DNA of 46,117 nt from Gammaproteobacteria bacterium (lineage in GTDB: Bacteria > Pseudomonadota > Gammaproteobacteria > Pseudomonadales > JAUIET01). The position numbers were made by a program, and so were the translations under genes. Below, in pieces: positions 2,535 to 11,828 of the stretch; positions within the stretch are counted from its first letter, which is position 1; each line of letters opens with the position of its first letter. The DNA lies in assembly GCA_030431775.1 (NCBI GenBank), contig JAUIHW010000030.1, forward strand, positions 1-46,117, read 5' to 3'. The notes beneath the pieces were generated by a model, which made no database searches, was not told where the DNA came from, and worked only from the letters and a program-made list of their open reading frames with translations.

Positions 2535-4265
2535 ATTTCCACATTCAAATCTTTCGGCCTGCGCCCGGAACTGTACAAAGCGCTGGACGAGGTCGGTTAT
2601 GAATCGCCCTCACCCATTCAGGAACAGAGCATGCCCCCATTGCTTGAGGGGCATGACATTATTGGTCAGGCACAGACTGGCACCGGCAAAACCGCGGCGT
2701 TTGCTTTACCTATTCTCAATGCATTGCACGCTGGCAGTGCCAGGCAGCCCAAAGCACTTGTGCTTGCACCGACGCGTGAATTGGCCATTCAGGTAGCTGA
2801 GGCCTTTCAGACCTACGCCAAACACATCAAGGGCTTTCGTGTTCTGCCGATCTACGGCGGGCAAAGTTATGAGGGTCAAATTCGTGCCTTGAAACGTGGC
2901 GTAGATGTGGTAGTTGGTACGCCAGGTCGCGTGATGGACCATATGCGCAAAGGCACACTGAAGCTGGACGAACTCAGTCACATGGTGCTGGACGAAGCCG
3001 ACGAAATGCTGCGCATGGGGTTTATTGACGACGTGGAATGGGTGCTCTCGCACACGCCGGAGCAGCGTCAGACAGCGCTGTTTTCGGCCACCATGCCCAA
3101 AGAGATCGCCAAGGTTGCCAAGCGCCATTTGAGAGACCCGGTGCAAATTCAGGTCGCCGTAAAAGCCAGCACCAATGTCGACATTCGCCAACGCTACTGG
3201 CCGGTAGCAGGCCTGCACAAGTTGGATGCGCTCACCCGTATTCTGGAAGCGGAAACTTTTGATGCCATCATCGTTTTTGTCCGCACCAAAACCAGCACGG
3301 TTGAACTCAGCGATAAACTGGCCGCTCGCGGTTATAGCAGTGCCGCCCTGAATGGCGACATCAGCCAGCAGCTGCGCGAGCGCACGATCGAGCAACTAAA
3401 ACAAGGGCGTATTGATATTCTGGTCGCCACCGATGTTGCAGCACGTGGGCTGGATGTGCCCCGCGTTAGCCATGTCATCAACTACGATATCCCTTACGAC
3501 ACCGAGGCCTATGTGCACCGTATCGGCCGTACCGGTCGGGCCGGGCGGGCGGGAGAAGCCATTCTGTTTGTGGCGCGGCGGGAAACCCGAATGCTGCGCG
3601 CTATCGAGCGGGCCACGGGTGCGACCATCAACGTCATGCAGATGCCCAGTACAGATGCCATCAACGCGCGGCGCAGTGAGCGCTTCCGCGAACAGATCAG
3701 CAGCGCCATCGAGAGCGGCGATCTGACACTGTACCGGGAACTGATCGCCACTCATCAGCAGGAAAGCGGCGAGGGACTGCTGGATATCGCTGCCGCCCTG
3801 GCCAGCCTGTTGCAGGGCGACCAGCCATTTTTTCTGAAGGAATCCAGGCACTCGGATCAACCTGAGTATGCCAACTCCAGCGAACAGGCAGTAAGAGGTC
3901 GCTCGAAGCCAGGCAAGAACCCAAAAGGGACGAAGAAGCAGAAGTCGGACAATTTTGATACTTATCGAATTGAGGTTGGCCATAATGATGGCGCACAACC
4001 GGGCAACATCGTTGGTGCAATTGCCAATGAGGCCGGCATCGACTCGCAATACATTGGCCGGATTCAATTATTCGACAGTTTCAGTACGGTCGATCTACCA
4101 AAAGGCATGCCAAAGGATATTTTTCAAACACTGAAAAAGGCACGAGTGTGTAACAAACCTCTCGCCCTTTCGCGCATTGATGCCGGGCCGCCTGAAAAAA
4201 CAGACCGCAGGCCAGGCAAGGCGCAGCGCAAGCGCAAAAAAGACAAAAGCCGTTCGAATAGCTGA
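2535..4265 (+). CDS. deaD: DEAD-box ATP-dependent RNA helicase DeaD/CsdA, apparent AUU start
   Basis: A DEAD-box RNA helicase of the CsdA/DeaD type, which unwinds RNA during ribosome assembly and cold-adapted mRNA turnover. From the proposed start (576 aa) the order is Q-motif (GYESPSPIQ, 21-29), motif I AQTGTGKT (46-53), Ia PTRELA, TPGR, DEAD (153-156), SAT (184-186), [15 protein letters not shown], then a DbpA-type RNA-binding domain (about 476-548) and a basic tail. The first ATG (2631) would delete the Q-motif and the upstream Phe needed for adenine recognition. In-frame family-like sequence continues back to an ATT codon at 2535 preceded by AAAAGG. AUU starts are known for infC and pcnB. 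The alternative is a sequencing error or a mutated ATG. The gene converges on rhlE with only 7 bases between stops. Confidence 0.9.
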   Translation: MSTFKSFGLRPELYKALDEVGYESPSPIQEQSMPPLLEGHDIIGQAQTGTGKTAAFALPILNALHAGSARQPKALVLAPTRELAIQVAEAFQTYAKHIKGFRVLPIYGGQSYEGQIRALKRGVDVVVGTPGRVMDHMRKGTLKLDELSHMVLDEADEMLRMGFIDDVEWVLSHTPEQRQTALFSATMPKEIAKVAKRHLRDPVQIQVAVKASTNVDIRQRYWPVAGLHKLDALTRILEAETFDAIIVFVRTKTSTVELSDKLAARGYSSAALNGDISQQLRERTIEQLKQGRIDILVATDVAARGLDVPRVSHVINYDIPYDTEAYVHRIGRTGRAGRAGEAILFVARRETRMLRAIERATGATINVMQMPSTDAINARRSERFREQISSAIESGDLTLYRELIATHQQESGEGLLDIAAALASLLQGDQPFFLKESRHSDQPEYANSSEQAVRGRSKPGKNPKGTKKQKSDNFDTYRIEVGHNDGAQPGNIVGAIANEAGIDSQYIGRIQLFDSFSTVDLPKGMPKDIFQTLKKARVCNKPLALSRIDAGPPEKTDRRPGKAQRKRKKDKSRSNS

Positions 4266-4272
4266 AACCGGT

Positions 4273-5616
4273 CTAGGCGTTGCGTGCAGGTTGCCGGCTG
4301 GAACTGGAACCACCATTTTTGCGCGGGTTTTGTTTGCCACGCGGTGATTGCGGCGCGTTGCGCGATTGCTTGCCGGATGACCTGCCGCGTGCTTGCCTAT
4401 TGGATCCGCCCGGGCGTGGCTTTTTCGTCCGGCCACTGCGGGATGCAGGCCGCGTAGCTGGCTGGCGGCTCTCAGGGAGATCATGCTCTGGCTCAAAGCC
4501 ATCAACCAAATGGCGCGGTAAAACCTTACCCAGCAAGCGTTCAATATCGCGCAGCTGCTTAATTTCGTCAGCCGATACCAGCGAAACCGCCTTGCCGCTG
4601 GCACCGGCACGCCCGGTGCGACCAATACGGTGCACGTAATCTTCAGGCACATTTGGCAGGTCAAAATTTACTACCTGCGGTAACTGGCTGATATCAAGCC
4701 CTCTGGCAGCAATATCGGTGGCGACCAGAATGCGGATGTCGCCCGACTTGAAGCCGGCTAAAGCACGCGTTCGCGCGCCCTGACTTTTATTACCATGTAT
4801 GGCGGCGGCATTGATACCGCGCGCATCCAATTGTTTAGCGATTTTGTTCGCACCGTGCTTGGTGCGGCTGAAAACCAGCACCTGCTGCCAGTCATTATCA
4901 ATAATAAGATTGGCCAGCAAAGCGCTCTTTTGCTTTTTGTCCACCGGACAGATGCTGTGTTCCACAGTGGCAACCGTGGAATTGGGCGGACTGACGGAAA
5001 CATCCACCGGGTTTTCCAGCAGACCTTTGGTGAGTTCTCGAATCTCTTTGGAAAACGTGGCGGAAAACAGCAGGTTTTGCCGCTGCTTGGGCAGCAGTTT
5101 GAGAATCCTGCGAATGTCGTGGATAAAGCCCATGTCCAGCATGCGATCGGCTTCATCCAGCACTAGTATCTCAACCTTGTCAAAACGTATGGCATTCTGC
5201 CCATGCAGGTCCAGCAAACGACCGGGCGTTGCCACCAGCACATCCACACCTTTGCGCAGTTTCATCATCTGCGGGTTTATTTTCACGCCGCCAAACACCA
5301 CGGTCGAGCGCAATGGCAGGTTTTTCCCGTATTCGCTCACACTCTCCCCTACCTGAGCGGCCAGTTCTCGGGTGGGTGTCAGCACCAGGGTTCTGCAACG
5401 GTTTGGCCCAGCTGGCTTACCAGCGCTGAGGCGTTCCAATATGGGCAGGGTGAAGCCGGCAGTTTTACCCGTGCCGGTCTGAGCAGCCGCCATGACATCC
5501 CGACCGGAAAGAACGGCGGGAATAGCCTGTTTCTGAATAGGGGTCGGCTCACCGTAACCTTTTTCGGAAACAGCCGCCAAAATGGGCGCACTAAGGCCCA
5601 GGGAATCAAAACTCAT
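4273..5616 (-). CDS. rhlE: DEAD-box ATP-dependent RNA helicase RhlE
   Basis: A 447-residue DEAD-box helicase of the RhlE subgroup, which acts in rRNA maturation and RNA decay. The N-terminus [13 protein letters not shown] is family-typical. Q-motif (GYGEPTPIQ), motif [10 protein letters not shown] (44-52), [26 protein letters not shown] and HRIGRTGR are all present. The last 70 or so residues are a low-complexity Arg/Lys/Ser/Gly/Pro tail typical of RhlE and likely RNA-binding. It is convergent with deaD, a second helicase of the superfamily. The ATG at 5616 is preceded by AAGAGA. Confidence 0.93.
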
Positions 5617-6657: not shown

Positions 6658-7646
6658 TGTCGGCACGAGAGCTTATACGCTGGGGTATTCTTGGTACTGG
6701 CCGTATGGCACGGGAATTTGCCGCGGCATTAGCAGAGGTTGAGAACGCTCAGCTGGTGGCCATCGCCTCACGCAACCACGCCCGTGCCGCCGAGCAAGCG
6801 CGGAAGTACAACATAAGTAAGTCGTTTGGCAGCTATGAGCAGTTAGCCCATCAACAGGACATTGATGTTGTCTATGTAGCGACACCTCCTGCCTTGCACA
6901 AAGACCATGCGGCGCTTTGTCTGCAGGCAGGTAAAGCGGTACTGTGTGAAAAGCCTTTTACAGTTAACGCAAGCGAGGCCCGCGAGCTGATTGATATCGC
7001 TCGCGCTCGGCGCTGTTTTCTCATGGAAGCCATGTGGACGCGTTTTGTACCCACGGTGCTTGCGCTGCATCGTGAGCTGCAGCGGGGAACCATCGGTGAT
7101 ATTCAGCTGGTGGTCGCTGGTGGTGCGTTTATTCCAGACTTTAACCCCAACTATTATCTGTTTCGCCCCGAACTCGGTGGTGGCGTTATGTTGGATGCCG
7201 GAGTCTACCTGGTGTCCATGGCGTCTATGCTGTGCGGGCCGATCGCTCAGGTGCTGGCCACTGGCGACACCGACTCTCGTTGCGCTGTTGATGCGCACGA
7301 TGCCGTTATTTTGCGGCATACCTCAGGCGCTCTGGCCAATCTTTATGTGTCCATGCGCGGGCGCTGCGCACCGGATATGCAGATTATCGGCTCGCAAGGG
7401 AAAATCACGGTGGCTGCGCCCCTCTTCTGTCCGCCTTCGTTCACCATTACCGATGCTGATGGCTGCAGCAGGGAGCTAAGCGGAGAATTGACCGGCAACC
7501 CTTATCGGCATCAGATTGAAGAGGTGCACACCTGCCTTCGCGCCGACCGGCTCGAAAGCACTAGCATGGGCCTGGACGAAACACTGGCGATCATGAGCAT
7601 ACTGGACGCTATCAGAACGCAGATAAGCCGTGCAGGCCTTAAATAA
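6657..7646 (+). CDS. Gfo/Idh/MocA family NAD(P)-dependent oxidoreductase
   Basis: A 329-residue oxidoreductase. The N-terminal Rossmann motif GILGTGRMA (10-18) and the CEKP signature (EKP at 98-100) define the family. The central FLMEAMWTRF segment and the C-terminal alpha/beta domain resemble the dihydrodiol or sugar dehydrogenase subgroup. The substrate cannot be read from sequence; a sugar, inositol or trans-dihydrodiol is typical. It overlaps the upstream SDR by one base and converges on the di-iron protein gene with 7 bases between stops, so the SDR-oxidoreductase pair looks like a two-gene operon. Confidence 0.9.
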   Translation: MSARELIRWGILGTGRMAREFAAALAEVENAQLVAIASRNHARAAEQARKYNISKSFGSYEQLAHQQDIDVVYVATPPALHKDHAALCLQAGKAVLCEKPFTVNASEARELIDIARARRCFLMEAMWTRFVPTVLALHRELQRGTIGDIQLVVAGGAFIPDFNPNYYLFRPELGGGVMLDAGVYLVSMASMLCGPIAQVLATGDTDSRCAVDAHDAVILRHTSGALANLYVSMRGRCAPDMQIIGSQGKITVAAPLFCPPSFTITDADGCSRELSGELTGNPYRHQIEEVHTCLRADRLESTSMGLDETLAIMSILDAIRTQISRAGLK

Positions 7647-7653
7647 TGCTGAT

Positions 7654-8409
7654 TTACTGCGGTACCCGATAAACTTCCGACATACATTCCACCGCGCCAG
7701 GAGAGCTGGCAATCCAGTCAATGAATTGCGCGGACAGGCTAGCGGTTGGAAAAATGGCACCGTGTTGCGGCACAATCCGGTCTATGTCAAGTGTTCGAAC
7801 CATATCAGCCCAATAGCGGTTGGCGTGATTGGAGGGCATGTACCGGCGATGAAATCCTTCCATGTATTGCACATGGCTGGCAAAGTCCTCCACTTCTACG
7901 TATGGCGGCCCTATAGAGGCACCCAAATCGCCGGAAAACAGTGTTTTGGACAGCGGATCGTACACCTGAAAGTTACCGGCTGAGTGCAGGAAGTGCGCCG
8001 GCAAAATCAACAACTCGGTGTCGCCCAGCGGCAGGCGCATACCCTGATCAGGAATGCCCTTCAGACGGGGAAGCATCAACTCGTCTACGCCAAAGTGCGG
8101 GATAAAGCGCAGCCACAATTCAGAAATGTAGGCCTCGGCATCACTGAGCATCAACCAGGCGTTGGCAGCGGCAACAATATCAGGGTCCTGGTGCGAAAAG
8201 AACAGGTACTTCAGGTCGTTAATCGGCACCAGTGAGGAGACTTCATTAATTACCTCATAATGCACTTTGTGGCCACCCGGGTCTAACAGGATCGCTTCGT
8301 TTCGATTGTGAATGAGCACCTGATTGGTCGGCACCATTTCGCCTTCGCCGAAACCTTCCAGCAATACAAAAGCGTGCCCACCGGCATGGTACAGGTAACT
8401 TGAACTCAT
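7654..8409 (-). CDS. Oxygen-binding-type di-iron protein, metallo-beta-lactamase fold (FprA/ODP-like)
   Basis: A 251-residue protein with the metallo-beta-lactamase fold of flavodiiron proteins but no flavodoxin domain. Ligand positions are recognisable: H73-Q-D75-P-D77 (for HxExD), H142 in FLHSAGN, D161 in SGD and H216 in PQHG. The flavodiiron position after D77, normally His, is Ile78, and the usual Glu is Asp75. Stand-alone proteins of this type (ODP) bind O2 and serve as sensors in some chemotaxis systems. The Roadblock gene lies 6 bp upstream on the same strand, so the two form an operon. No FMN-binding partner is encoded nearby, which favours sensing over reduction of O2 or NO; that is inference. 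A generic MBL hydrolase is less likely because the HxHxDH motif is absent. Confidence 0.8.
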   Translation of the reverse strand: MSSSYLYHAGGHAFVLLEGFGEGEMVPTNQVLIHNRNEAILLDPGGHKVHYEVINEVSSLVPINDLKYLFFSHQDPDIVAAANAWLMLSDAEAYISELWLRFIPHFGVDELMLPRLKGIPDQGMRLPLGDTELLILPAHFLHSAGNFQVYDPLSKTLFSGDLGASIGPPYVEVEDFASHVQYMEGFHRRYMPSNHANRYWADMVRTLDIDRIVPQHGAIFPTASLSAQFIDWIASSPGAVECMSEVYRVPQ

Positions 8410-8415
8410 ACAGAC

Positions 8416-8784
8416 CTACGACGCAACCAGCTCGGCCACGGTTTTAGCGGCTTTTGGGCCTTCCAGCCGAATCAGGCCTAGATTAGCTCGCCGGGGTGAT
8501 CGTAAGGCTAATATTGCACCGGGACCGGCCATATAGATCACCAGGGTTTCATTATTGCCTTCAATCATCATATCCACCATATCACCCAACTCTGTGGTCT
8601 TGGTGATTCGGTTTCCAAGCCCGATGGCCGCCGCGCCCATTGCCGCAATTCGGGCCGCTTCCTCTTCGCCAAAATCGGTACTGATCGCCAAGCCGTCAAC
8701 CGACGCTACCATGACACCGGTAATATCCGGTACGTTTTCACGCAAACCCCGGATGATGTCGGCAAATTGTTCTTGTTTGCTCAT
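8416..8784 (-). CDS. Roadblock/LC7 domain protein (MglB-like)
   Basis: A 122-residue single-domain Roadblock/LC7 protein. The pattern is typical: an N-terminal helix (LRENVPDITGVMVASVDG), the strand pair VMVASVDGLAIS, a long small-residue helix (EEAARIAAMGAAAIGLGNRI), VDMMIEG, LVIYMAGPGAILAL and LGLIRLE. Bacterial Roadblock proteins such as MglB act as dimers that regulate Ras-like MglA GTPases or as scaffolds. No MglA-type GTPase is encoded in the window. The gene is the first of a two-gene minus-strand operon with the di-iron protein, divergent from three further genes of which the last ends in a second Roadblock-like domain. An FNR-like site lies upstream. Confidence 0.92.
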   Translation of the reverse strand: MSKQEQFADIIRGLRENVPDITGVMVASVDGLAISTDFGEEEAARIAAMGAAAIGLGNRITKTTELGDMVDMMIEGNNETLVIYMAGPGAILALRSPRRANLGLIRLEGPKAAKTVAELVAS

Positions 8785-8843
8785 CGCCGTCCCGCCTTCT
8801 GCTGCTTTATGTGCAGAATAAACGATTGTTCTCAGGCCCCCGT

Positions 8844-8857
8844 ATGACCTGGATCAA
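8844..8857. promoter_or_regulatory. FNR/Anr-like palindrome between the divergent operons
   Basis: ATGAC-CTGG-ATCAA matches the FNR/Anr consensus TTGAT-N4-ATCAA at 8 of 10 positions, with one perfect half-site. Its centre (8850.5) is about 41.5 bp from a plausible plus-strand start near 8892, with TAAATT at 8880-8885 as -10. It is about 42 bp from a plausible minus-strand start near 8808, with TATTCT at 8815-8820 as -10. These are class II activator spacings on both sides. Oxygen-responsive control would suit the di-iron protein gene. The site is predicted by eye only. Confidence 0.4.
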
Positions 8858-8917
8858 GCTTTCGTTCGTGTATTGGCGGTAAATTGTTTAATGATTAAGC
8901 ATCATCAGCAAAGGAAT

Positions 8918-9850
8918 ATGGGCGGATTGCAACTGGCTGTCTGCGGCTTCAACCGGCCGGACAGAACATTCATCAAGACAATGATCGAGCTCGCCGCGGA
9001 GCGCGAGGTCGGAGCGTGGACTTTTGTGGATGATGCGCCATCAGATGCTCTGCTGTTGAATATCGACACCCTGCGCCACCAGGAAGGCGAAGTGAACTTC
9101 GCGGTTTCCGACCACCCCAGCGTGGTTGTAGCTTGCTCGCAGAACGCGCCAAGAGCCGCGTCACAACCCAGCGAACACTTACACATGCAACTGCCGCTGA
9201 CCTACTCACGGCTGCTTGAATTACTGCTATTGATCGAATGTCGACTCGAGCACCAACGCAGCCAGCAGACGCCGAACGTCAGTTCACGGCGCTTCTACGA
9301 AGCCATGTGTATGCTCGGCCTGTTGAAATCGCTGATTGATCGCCATCGGAGTGTTGAAATCACCCACCCGAGATACAGCCCCATGCGAATTTATCCGGCA
9401 GAACAGATATTTGCCGTGCCTTTGGGAGCCACCTTAACGGCAGAGATGTTTCAGACCTTGCCGGCCAAATTCCTGGTGCACGACCTGCCAAAAGCAGAAC
9501 ACAAACGGCCACCGCCAAACTGGCAGGCAAAGCCACTTTGGAAGCTGGTTTTCACAGCAGCTCTGCTGGGGTCCCAGGGTCGCTTGAAAGAAGGTGCAAA
9601 CCCGCATGATAAACTGTGTTTGAGCAACGAGCCCGATTACAATATCGTGCCCCAAGCGCTGGAGTACCGGCCAATTTGTGATGCCATGCTGGCCATGGGC
9701 CCGGCCAATATTGGCGCCATCGCCCGACGCTCTGGAAAAAGCATCGAGGATGTGATCGATTTCTGTAACGCTTGCGAAGAAATGCTACTGTTAACCAGAC
9801 TGCCGGCCAGCCATGAACACTCAGATCGTCAAGAGCGCAGCGTCAGCTGA
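8918..9850 (+). CDS. Uncharacterised protein with pseudo-receiver-like N-terminus and winged-helix-like C-terminus
   Basis: I do not recognise a named family. Residues 1-112 alternate strand and helix like a receiver domain: LQLAVCGF, RTFIKTMIELAAER, SDALLLNID, PSVVVACS, then HMQLPLTYSRLLELL, where receivers have the KP motif. The phospho-acceptor region and conserved Lys are degenerate, so phosphorylation is doubtful. The last 65 residues (ANIGAIARRSGKSIEDVIDFC) resemble a helix-turn-helix. Start choices are TTG 8873, ATG 8891 or ATG 8918. I take 8918 because AAAGGA lies just upstream and the fold-like sequence begins there (310 aa). The 3' end overlaps the next gene by 38 nt. It is the first gene of a three-gene operon divergent from the Roadblock/di-iron pair. 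Confidence 0.75.
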   Translation: MGGLQLAVCGFNRPDRTFIKTMIELAAEREVGAWTFVDDAPSDALLLNIDTLRHQEGEVNFAVSDHPSVVVACSQNAPRAASQPSEHLHMQLPLTYSRLLELLLLIECRLEHQRSQQTPNVSSRRFYEAMCMLGLLKSLIDRHRSVEITHPRYSPMRIYPAEQIFAVPLGATLTAEMFQTLPAKFLVHDLPKAEHKRPPPNWQAKPLWKLVFTAALLGSQGRLKEGANPHDKLCLSNEPDYNIVPQALEYRPICDAMLAMGPANIGAIARRSGKSIEDVIDFCNACEEMLLLTRLPASHEHSDRQERSVS

Positions 9851-10511
9851 CAACTCCGCATTACCGATAGGATATCAGCCGGAGCCCGCCCTGCTGCCAC
9901 CGTGTCGCAAGGTCACTCCGCAATTTTCCGACCCACTGCTGCAGCAAGCTTACCCCGGTTTTCTGTCCCGCAAGCTCCAGCGCAACCCGAGAGACCTGTT
10001 GGCCCATGTGCAGAGAATACGCCTGTTGCGTCAGGCCGGGCAAGGGGATGCCTGCTATGCGGCGTTGAATGCACTATTTCAGATACTTGGGACCAGTGGT
10101 CAGGCTTTGCGGAAACGTCTGCTGTTACAGTGCAGGCTATTGCTAAACAAGCAGCAGCACCAGCGTCTTGAGCAGCAATTGTTGGGCGAAGATGCTGCTC
10201 CCTACTCGCTGCCAGTCGTTGACGCTGCATACACAGATATTCAGGGTACTTTGGCCATCGTAGCTCAAACGCACCGAACAACAGATTCTAAGGTAAATGT
10301 TTTGCTCGAACCGCAGCTGAGCAGATTGGAGAGCATGGTGCGTTCTGACCCAGGAGATAAACAAGCCTGTAGCGAGCTGCTCGGCCTCTATCAGCAATAT
10401 AAGCTGCGTAGCGAGTTTACCGCCATGCACGCAGAGTTGCTGAGTCGTCGCTTCGCACTGCCAGAAGATTGGCAGGCAACCGAGCGCATGTTCGCCTGTG
10501 ATCAGGCGTGA
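9813..10511 (+). CDS. Uncharacterised helical-repeat (TPR-like) protein
   Basis: This 232-residue protein has no motif I can name. After a Pro-rich N-terminal 40 residues it is almost entirely predicted helix, with TPR-like spacing of small and aromatic residues (RNPRDLLAHVQRIRLLRQAGQGDACYAALNALFQ, about residues 57-90, then RLLLNKQQHQRLEQQL), and a second helical pair near the C-terminus (DKQACSELLGLYQQYKLRSEF). No signal peptide or membrane segment is seen. It overlaps the upstream gene by 38 nt and is 24 nt from the next, so it is an internal operon member, perhaps an adaptor between the pseudo-receiver and Roadblock-like proteins (inference). Confidence 0.7.
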   Translation: MNTQIVKSAASADNSALPIGYQPEPALLPPCRKVTPQFSDPLLQQAYPGFLSRKLQRNPRDLLAHVQRIRLLRQAGQGDACYAALNALFQILGTSGQALRKRLLLQCRLLLNKQQHQRLEQQLLGEDAAPYSLPVVDAAYTDIQGTLAIVAQTHRTTDSKVNVLLEPQLSRLESMVRSDPGDKQACSELLGLYQQYKLRSEFTAMHAELLSRRFALPEDWQATERMFACDQA

Positions 10512-10535
10512 CGTACGCGGAAGCGGCGAGCTGAA

Positions 10536-11168
10536 ATGACTGATTACCAACTGCTTGATGAACTTTATCTGCTGCCCACTGCCGCCGGCGCATTCTACGC
10601 AGCTTCAAGTCGGGCTGATGACCCTATCCGCGACATGCTATTTAATTTACTCAGAGAAGGCAGCAGCCCGCTGGCAAGCCCCGCATCATTAACTCATTGG
10701 TTTGCGAATGAAGATCAACAGCAATGCCTCGCCTGGTTGCATCGCGCCCAAACCCTGTCACTGATTCAGGGTTTTCGGGAGCCACAGCATGTACCAGGCG
10801 CCGGAACTGGAAAGAAACTGGAAGACCTTTTGCCTGCACTCTCCGCCTTGGGTAAAGCAATACTGGTGGACTGGAACGGGCTTACCCTGGCGTATACCGG
10901 CCTGGACGCTGAAGCAGCGGATATGCTAGCCGCACTCAGTGCTGACCTTATCGCGGTTCAAGCGAGGCACGCACAACGACTGGCGCAAACTCTCGGCCTT
11001 GGCAATCAAGGCTGGGCAGCGGTGGATGCATTTGGATCCAGCCGCATCGGCGCCTGGCCGCTATTTGTGAACGAACAGCGCTTCATGCTGGTGGTTCTGG
11101 GCGAACCACAATTAAATTGCAAAGAGTTCATTGAATTGGTCTGGGTTTTGGTTAACCGCTACGGCTGA
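10536..11168 (+). CDS. Uncharacterised protein with degenerate C-terminal Roadblock/LC7-like domain
   Basis: A 210-residue protein. Residues 1-80 are helical and could form a winged helix (MLFNLLREG...LAWLHRAQTLSLIQGF). Residues 95-210 follow Roadblock topology: helix LLPALSALG, strands KAILVDWNGLTLAYTG (compare VMVASVDGLAIST in the gene at 8416-8784), a long Ala-rich helix (AEAADMLAALSADLIAVQARHAQRLAQTLG), strands WAAVDAFGSSRIGAWPL and FMLVVLGE, and a final helix. The resemblance is pattern-level and below what I would call a certain family match. It is the last gene of the divergent operon, which gives the module a second Roadblock-like subunit. Confidence 0.72.
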   Translation: MTDYQLLDELYLLPTAAGAFYAASSRADDPIRDMLFNLLREGSSPLASPASLTHWFANEDQQQCLAWLHRAQTLSLIQGFREPQHVPGAGTGKKLEDLLPALSALGKAILVDWNGLTLAYTGLDAEAADMLAALSADLIAVQARHAQRLAQTLGLGNQGWAAVDAFGSSRIGAWPLFVNEQRFMLVVLGEPQLNCKEFIELVWVLVNRYG

Positions 11169-11232
11169 CTACCAACCGTAGTAAGGGTTGCCCGCGCATT
11201 CAAGCCTATCAGTACATAGTTAACCACAGGCT

Positions 11233-11246
11233 CCCGCAGGTGCGGG
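11233..11246. repeat. Small inverted repeat between convergent genes
   Basis: CCCGCA-GG-TGCGGG is a perfect 6-bp inverted repeat with a 2-nt centre. It lies between the stop of the Roadblock-like gene (11168) and the stop of the SnoaL-like gene (11250). No T-run follows on either strand, so it is at best a weak or Rho-assisted terminator. Confidence 0.3.
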
Positions 11247-11249
11247 TTG

Positions 11250-11828
11250 TCATCGTGAATCGGGAACAGGCATTACACTGCGTGGAAACCAGGCAGCTTG
11301 TCGTAACAAATTCTGGGCGGCCTGCTCACCCAGCAGTCGAGACTCGCGTCGGCGGATGTACCAATGCCCGGCGCAGCGCTGGAATTGCCATTCATTTACG
11401 GCTACTCGCATCAGCTGGGCTTGGCCACTCCCACCGGCCTGGTAGATCCGGGAATAGCCGGTAGCACGGGCTTGATCCCCGCTTGCTTCCACAGTGACCG
11501 GCCCCACCGTGTGAGCGCAGTTTGGCAACAACGACTGGTGTAAGTCGGATTCCAGCATGCCCTCGATTGCCTCGTGGCCGTGCAGCTCAAGATCCGGGGC
11601 AGCCTGGTTTTGATCTTCGCGGCCCGCGCCAGGTGCAGATACCACATAAACCGCATTCTCCAAATGACAGCTGAGAGCTGCCGCTACGTCACCGCAATCC
11701 GCGGCCAGCCCATATCTGACAACCAGATTGCGAATCGCAAGCTCGTCCTCGGTGCGCTGTAGCCGTTGTTCCAGAGCCTCCAGGCGTTGCAGGAGTGTTT
11801 CTATCTTTTCGGCCTGCTCAGTGCTCAT
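11250..11828 (-). CDS. SnoaL-like / NTF2-fold family protein
   Basis: A 192-residue protein. After an N-terminal coiled-coil helix (EKIETLLQRLEALEQRLQRTEDELAIRNL, about residues 7-35) comes an NTF2/SnoaL-like cone fold: VVRYGLAADCGDVAAAL, a middle segment ending HTVGPVTVEASGDQARATGYSRIY, and NEWQFQRCAGHWYIRRRESRLL. Family members are cyclases, dehydratases, isomerases or non-catalytic binders of hydrophobic ligands. The ATG at 11828 overlaps the stop of the upstream MFS transporter (ATGA), so the two are translationally coupled and may handle one hydrophobic compound as transporter plus modifying or binding protein. An upstream in-frame start at 11912 would run deep into the transporter gene and is rejected. 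Confidence 0.8.
   Translation of the reverse strand: MSTEQAEKIETLLQRLEALEQRLQRTEDELAIRNLVVRYGLAADCGDVAAALSCHLENAVYVVSAPGAGREDQNQAAPDLELHGHEAIEGMLESDLHQSLLPNCAHTVGPVTVEASGDQARATGYSRIYQAGGSGQAQLMRVAVNEWQFQRCAGHWYIRRRESRLLGEQAAQNLLRQAAWFPRSVMPVPDSR

Follow-up and report, generated by a model that had tools for sequence, protein, structure and literature searches.

Work on bacterial Roadblock proteins has mostly concerned how they regulate, or act together with, MglA-type GTPases. Such a GTPase is part of the Group 3 mgl systems of Beta- and Gammaproteobacteria, together with a protein for which a receiver fold and a winged helix-turn-helix (wHTH) fold are predicted and a role in transcription has been suggested (Wuichet and Sogaard-Andersen 2014, PMC4316618). 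In Myxococcus xanthus, the response regulator RomR contains a helix to which the Roadblock protein MglC binds (PMC12719032). A connection between Roadblock domains and oxygen is known from HGbRL of Methylacidiphilum, in which a globin is fused to a Roadblock domain and the ferrous globin binds O2 (PMC4476040), and an oxygen-binding di-iron protein (ODP) serves as the O2 sensor for chemotaxis in Treponema denticola (PMC7666581). Here we describe five genes at positions 7654 to 11168 of a 46,117-nucleotide stretch of DNA (hereafter the window; contig JAUIHW010000030.1 of assembly GCA_030431775.1) from a gammaproteobacterium. The genes do not constitute a new kind of system; they resemble a known switch for motility and polarity and are best read as a GTPase-free, oxygen-sensor-coupled variant of Group 3-like mgl systems. 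The locus is composed as follows:

7654 to 8409, minus strand: ODP, a stand-alone oxygen-binding di-iron protein
8416 to 8784, minus strand: ROB1, an MglB-like Roadblock/LC7 protein
8785 to 8917: divergent intergenic region of 133 bp, its sequence not kept among relatives
8918 to 9850, plus strand: P3, a degenerate receiver domain followed by a central part and a winged-helix-like C-terminal part
9813 to 10511, plus strand: P4, a helical, TPR-like adaptor
10536 to 11168, plus strand: P5, a helical, winged-helix-like N-terminal part followed by a degenerate Roadblock domain

In an analysis of the whole window, all five open reading frames (ORFs) are present and open, and they form two divergent operons, as the initial annotation had described. 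The ORF list gives P3 as TTG 8873 to 9850. We prefer the ATG at 8918, which has AAAGGA just 5′ of it; this start sets the distance to the ROB1 start at the 133 bp given earlier. ODP and ROB1 are separated by 6 bp, the first 38 nt of P4 lie within P3, and the G+C content of the five genes (0.53–0.56) is similar to that of the window.

ODP matches PF19583 above the cut-off (E = 5.8e-71) and consists of a metallo-beta-lactamase fold with neither a flavodoxin nor a rubredoxin domain. Its nearest solved relatives are two Protein Data Bank (PDB) entries named as oxygen-binding di-iron proteins (6qrq, E = 2.1e-63; 6qnm, E = 2.6e-52), and the HQDPD motif is common to the window protein and 6qrq. Residues H73, D75, D77, H142, D161, and H216 are invariant across seven ODPs. 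Sequence family and metal-site motif both place the protein in the ODP family, in agreement with its earlier description as a flavodoxin-less di-iron protein of the ODP fold, and we propose that it may sense O2 or redox state. NCBIfam returned weak matches only, far under the cut-offs, all of them from ODP among the five proteins. Like the ODPs with solved structures (PF19583; 6qrq, 6qnm), the window ODP is a stand-alone protein with the same metal-site motif, and its identity to the free-standing ODPs compared is at most 41%. The partner gene, however, encodes a Roadblock protein here and a chemoreceptor in T. denticola (PMC7666581). A search of a plasmid collection with ODP as probe returned nine records; in the six regions examined, one of which lacks annotation, tblastn with the five window proteins matched ODP alone, so that ODP by itself is no marker of the module. 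One free-standing ODP, on a Pseudoalteromonas replicon (L009, 5387–6732), adjoins a gene annotated as “chemotaxis protein,” an arrangement resembling that of Treponema.

The two Roadblock matches in the window's own genome are ROB1 and P5. ROB1 is recognized by Pfam (Robl_LC7, PF03259, E = 5.4e-16), and its profile matches are Roadblock structures, including CvnB5. P5 matches Robl_LC7 below the curated cut-off (E = 3.7e-4). Its structure model (m9fd416c7d34a; mean pLDDT 87.3, built from a 19-row alignment) shows a Roadblock domain in the C-terminal half, whose best PDB match in Foldseek is Thermus MglB (E = 1.6e-4; TM-score, normalized to target length, 0.51), with further Roadblock structures also matched. 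The N-terminal half of P5 is helical and is winged-helix-like by secondary structure only. The locus therefore does encode two Roadblock-like proteins, one of them degenerate, as first supposed.

Neither P3 nor P4 has a match in Pfam. In the model of P3 (m6b29a857b16b; mean pLDDT 84.3, pTM 0.59), residues 3–124 adopt a receiver fold, with VIA-align Z scores of 11.5 to DgcR and 11.0 to XynC over about 110 residues. Profile comparison gave 76.8% for five receivers versus 0.1% for a GTPase control; Foldseek alone found nothing at E 0.001 or better, receivers starting at E = 5e-3, and a Pfam response-regulator match appears in only two of 18 rows of the P3 alignment (best E = 0.11). The receiver-like fold proposed for the plus strand is thus located in P3. 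It is degenerate: counting from ATG 8918, Asn48 occupies the phospho-Asp position and a Leu the Lys position in the profile alignment, so the phospho-acceptor Asp and the conserved Lys of a two-component response regulator are absent. The C-terminus is modeled as three helices followed by a strand, a region barely covered by structure comparison. Most P3 relatives carry a basic amphipathic stretch at the C-terminus, possibly a membrane anchor, which the shorter window P3 lacks (9813–9850). This trend is statistically weak: in 14 of 18 rows the top-scoring tail 11-mer ranks at or above the 95th percentile among the 11-mers of the same protein, but choosing the best of 15 windows would bring about half of the rows to that level by chance, and the window P3 does not attain it. 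For P4, the TPR_14 family matches nine of the 13 alignment members, the window protein not being among them.

The association of these genes is conserved beyond the window. In the class, 59 of 369 genomes contain a ROB1 match, eight besides the window's own at 52–63% identity and the rest at about 36% or less. A further genome scan yielded 24 loci, of which 13 (L060–L072) carry a ROB1 of the same clade, in Sedimenticola, Candidatus Thiodiazotropha (two), Woeseiaceae (two), Thiotrichales, Chromatiales, and metagenome-assembled genomes. With the window and L044 (genome G359), the ROB1-clade set comprises 15 distinct loci, some of them close kin (L044, L070, L071). Gene content was counted by tblastn because the ORF caller picked wrong-strand ORFs in some GC-rich loci, and the starts of P3, P4, and P5 in relatives are approximate. 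P3 was a poor search probe, matching one of 56 genomes, the window's own.

The divergent P5-P4-P3|ROB1 layout of the window recurs in L061 through L064, the two Thiodiazotropha and two Woeseiaceae loci. L061 and L062 contain all five genes with a complete ODP after ROB1; L064 retains the first 54 residues of ODP, and the contig of L063 ends right after ROB1. At a contig edge, L060 preserves part of P3 followed by ROB1 and ODP. ROB1-ODP pairs also occur in L065 and, with a convergent P5, in L066. A second layout, P3-ROB1-protoglobin followed by P4-P5, is found in L067, L070, L071, and L044, and P3-ROB1-protoglobin without P4-P5 in L068 and L069. L072 consists of P3-ROB1 and has no sensor. The protoglobin assignment was confirmed by Pfam in L044, in L042 (the same locus as L069), and in L054. 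Thus, of the 14 ROB1-clade loci that can be read, 13 have a protein of an O2-binding type after ROB1, ODP in seven and protoglobin in six; L063 is the unreadable one. Replacement of ODP by protoglobin in sister loci strengthens the initial proposal of an oxygen-related input. The recurrence of the divergent layout in L061–L064, which exceeds chance, leads us to reject a chance neighborhood, and phage cargo is likewise rejected, ROB1 having no match in 50,697 phage records. In two P4/P5-less loci, a gene for a rhomboid-like membrane protein was noted by eye close downstream of the ROB1 operon (L042, 8498–9265; L046, 7305–8000).

Sensor type is also reflected in the Roadblock phylogeny. In a tree of 38 rows, the ODP-linked ROB1 sequences form one clade (95/95) that includes L063, the globin-linked sequences form one group (86/87) that includes L072, and GTPase-linked sequences form another (99/97). 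The position of the root is unsure, since long branches come together at the outgroups. In the order to which the window belongs, 38 of 390 genomes contain a ROB1 match; apart from the window's own, none of these exceeds 30% identity. The genus has one other genome, in which no Roadblock protein was matched and only the neighbors from 13246 onward are retained. Horizontal gain of the module is the simplest inference, yet the G+C content of the five genes is like that of the window.

Distant homologues point to the ancestry of the module. They belong to a larger and widespread type of operon encoding P4, a relative of P3, a Ras-like GTPase (about 180 aa), P5, and a Roadblock protein; P5 and the GTPase were both called in nine of 12 loci (L048–L059) and in 10 of 20 loci (L087–L106). 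These GTPase-bearing operons fit the Group 3 mgl systems (PMC4316618), with which we equate them by architecture and class only. The features held in common are a receiver-like protein with a variable linker and a C-terminus that may be winged-helix-like (P3) and one or two Roadblock proteins of the MglB family (P5, ROB1); P4 relatives moreover sit in the same operons. The window module differs in lacking a GTPase gene, in drawing ROB1 from another Roadblock clade, in having a dedicated O2-binding partner, and in being divergent rather than a single operon. Because the MglA-type GTPase is missing, we regard the module as a derivative, not a member, of Group 3. The suggestion that this was an undescribed system accordingly needs dividing: its kin have been described, while for the GTPase-free variant no description was found in searches of open-access papers. 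Among the titles listed none names an ODP/Roadblock module, nothing joins Roadblock and protoglobin, and no account of Group 3 MglA beyond the study cited appeared; the one paper mentioning both an MBL-fold metallo-hydrolase and Roadblock concerns Deinococcus G-quadruplexes. Some of the GTPase operons have further neighbors, namely a PAS protein with a phosphonate-binding-like protein, protoglobin (L054, L094, L101), or a CZB (chemoreceptor zinc-binding) protein, and others have none. The PAS and phosphonate-binding-like pair follows the operon in L048 (6382–8049, by Pfam) and, by eye, in L049, L050, L092, L100, L101, L102, and L106, and the CZB protein follows the Roadblock gene in L055 (8404–8763).

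The absence of a GTPase, anticipated in the initial annotation for the locus itself, extends to the genome. No match to the mgl-type GTPase of a relative was found in the window's own genome (98.3% complete, 121 contigs), and the best hit of a GTPase profile search there was E = 0.09, in a 297-aa frame. PF00025 produced a single Arf-family match, inside a 904-aa frame whose size we take to be that of IF-2. This family missed mgl-type GTPases in genomes possessing them, so the search with a relative's GTPase and the profile search are the real test. No GTPase is seen in L060–L072 as far as the contigs reach, or at any of the 15 ROB1-clade loci. At other genomic positions, an mgl-type GTPase was found in eight of the 15 ROB1-clade genomes (G422, G427–G432, G359) and not in seven (the window's own, G421, G423–G426, G433), all being drafts. 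In the eight ODP-clade genomes, it occurs elsewhere in two and in none of the other six. The search gave E = 0.005 over 50 residues of a 379-aa frame in G433, and in G426 another Roadblock gene is situated close to the start of a contig, so that the GTPase of this genome may be unassembled.

Our preferred reading, held at a little short of even confidence, is that the five genes form an oxygen- or redox-responsive module, derived from Group 3 mgl systems, in which a signal would pass from ODP through ROB1 to P5, P3, and P4 without a G protein. ODP would bind O2 or change its redox state at the di-iron site and relay the signal to ROB1, encoded in the same operon. The clades of ROB1 follow sensor type, which makes it the likely sensor-facing protein, and it could act on P5 by Roadblock–Roadblock contact. 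Together, P5, the pseudo-receiver P3, and the TPR-like P4 would then make up an output scaffold, with P3 and P4 providing the readout. We put forward somewhat more tentatively that the two Roadblock proteins are themselves the switch, gated by an exchangeable ODP or protoglobin and read out by the pseudo-receiver and the TPR-like adaptor. As a hypothesis, the core of the initial annotation, an oxygen or redox signal acting through Roadblock proteins without a GTPase, has good support.

As for the output, we favor an effect on type IV pili or surface behavior that is exerted on proteins, although this is the weakest step and, taken by itself, less likely than not. PilT was found above the cut-off in 14 of 14 genomes, and the sole methyl-accepting chemotaxis protein (MCP) gene of the window's own genome lies with PilT/PilU-, CheY-, CheW-, and ChpA-like genes in a pil-chp-like cluster (L107; names from reading of the genes). 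Both Woeseiaceae genomes, like the window's own, have a single MCP together with FliG. In Snodgrassella, which bears a Group 3 system, mutation of an orphan mglB altered spreading (PMC11112851).

Several observations weigh against this scheme. FliG is also present in 14 of 14 genomes, so that pili are not singled out; the mgl-type GTPases encoded elsewhere in eight of the 15 ROB1-clade genomes make cross-talk possible there; ROB1 has no adjoining sensor in L072, and P4 and P5 are not nearby in L068, L069, and L072; and ODPs standing free of module partners are fairly common in other bacteria.

The main alternative is an oxygen-responsive transcription regulator, in which P3, P5, or both would bind DNA through their winged-helix-like domains and be switched by ODP and ROB1. 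The wHTH fold predicted for the Group 3 protein and the transcriptional role suggested for it (PMC4316618) are consistent with this, as are the three helices and strand that end the P3 model and the helical N-terminal half of P5. However, the net charge of the P3 C-terminal domain is negative in 10 of 11 ROB1-clade rows, as against positive in all seven GTPase-linked rows, no DNA-binding structure is among the 50 matches listed for the P3 C-terminus (a region with little coverage), and the divergent region is not conserved. We consider this alternative unlikely. No clear sequence conservation was seen in the divergent region among six loci, and a conserved operator was rejected as weak on this basis. 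A site resembling that of FNR/Anr, with one mismatch to the consensus, lies in the middle of the region (8844–8857); it is weak and not kept in relatives. When the 133 bp are shuffled, such a site arises in 1.6% of cases, and none with at most one mismatch occurs in the other upstream regions scanned; the window as a whole contains six such sites versus 4.76 expected. No sigma-70-like promoter was found in 7400–11400, where 2.6 would be expected by chance.

Less likely again, the two Roadblock proteins may continue to regulate a GTPase whose gene lies at another site, which would make the module an orphaned arm of an mgl system. The eight ROB1-clade genomes with an unlinked GTPase would allow such a relationship, and orphan mglB genes are known in Snodgrassella (PMC11112851), but no candidate was found in the remaining seven draft genomes (with the reservations given for G426 and G433), and in the window's own the sole Arf-family match is the one in the 904-aa frame. 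That ODP is an enzyme reducing O2, NO, or peroxide and merely co-expressed with a signaling unit is improbable: the metallo-beta-lactamase fold and a weak NCBIfam flavorubredoxin match (E = 0.028) would suit it, but ODP lacks flavodoxin and rubredoxin domains, its nearest solved relatives are named for oxygen binding, and protoglobin fills its position in sister loci.

The preferred O2-responsive, GTPase-free module can also be set beside other Roadblock systems. Like HGbRL (PMC4476040), it couples an O2-binding module to a Roadblock domain, but in HGbRL a heme globin and the Roadblock domain share a single polypeptide, and the text consulted on it describes neither a receiver or TPR-like partner nor a further Roadblock protein; ODP and ROB1 are separate genes. 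The actinobacterial conservon (CvnA-D) is similar in its compactness and in having an MglB-type Roadblock protein, along with small partners, behind a sensor, yet neither a histidine kinase nor a CvnD-type GTPase is among the genes of our locus by ORF list and Pfam. The module shares with the MglB/MglC/RomR proteins of M. xanthus (PMC12719032) the cooperation of Roadblock proteins with a receiver-bearing protein, but the M. xanthus genes are unlinked, MglA is present, and no O2-binding partner is known. If our proposal is correct, oxygen signaling could proceed without a kinase, chemoreceptor, or GTPase, and Roadblock proteins could signal without a G protein. The exchange of ODP and protoglobin further offers a testable proposal for a signal that mgl-type systems more widely might receive; no such input was found described in the literature consulted. 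Elsewhere in the window, visual inspection of the translations suggests that 2631–4265 and 4273–5616 are two different genes of DEAD-box helicase type, arranged tail to tail with 7 bp between them.

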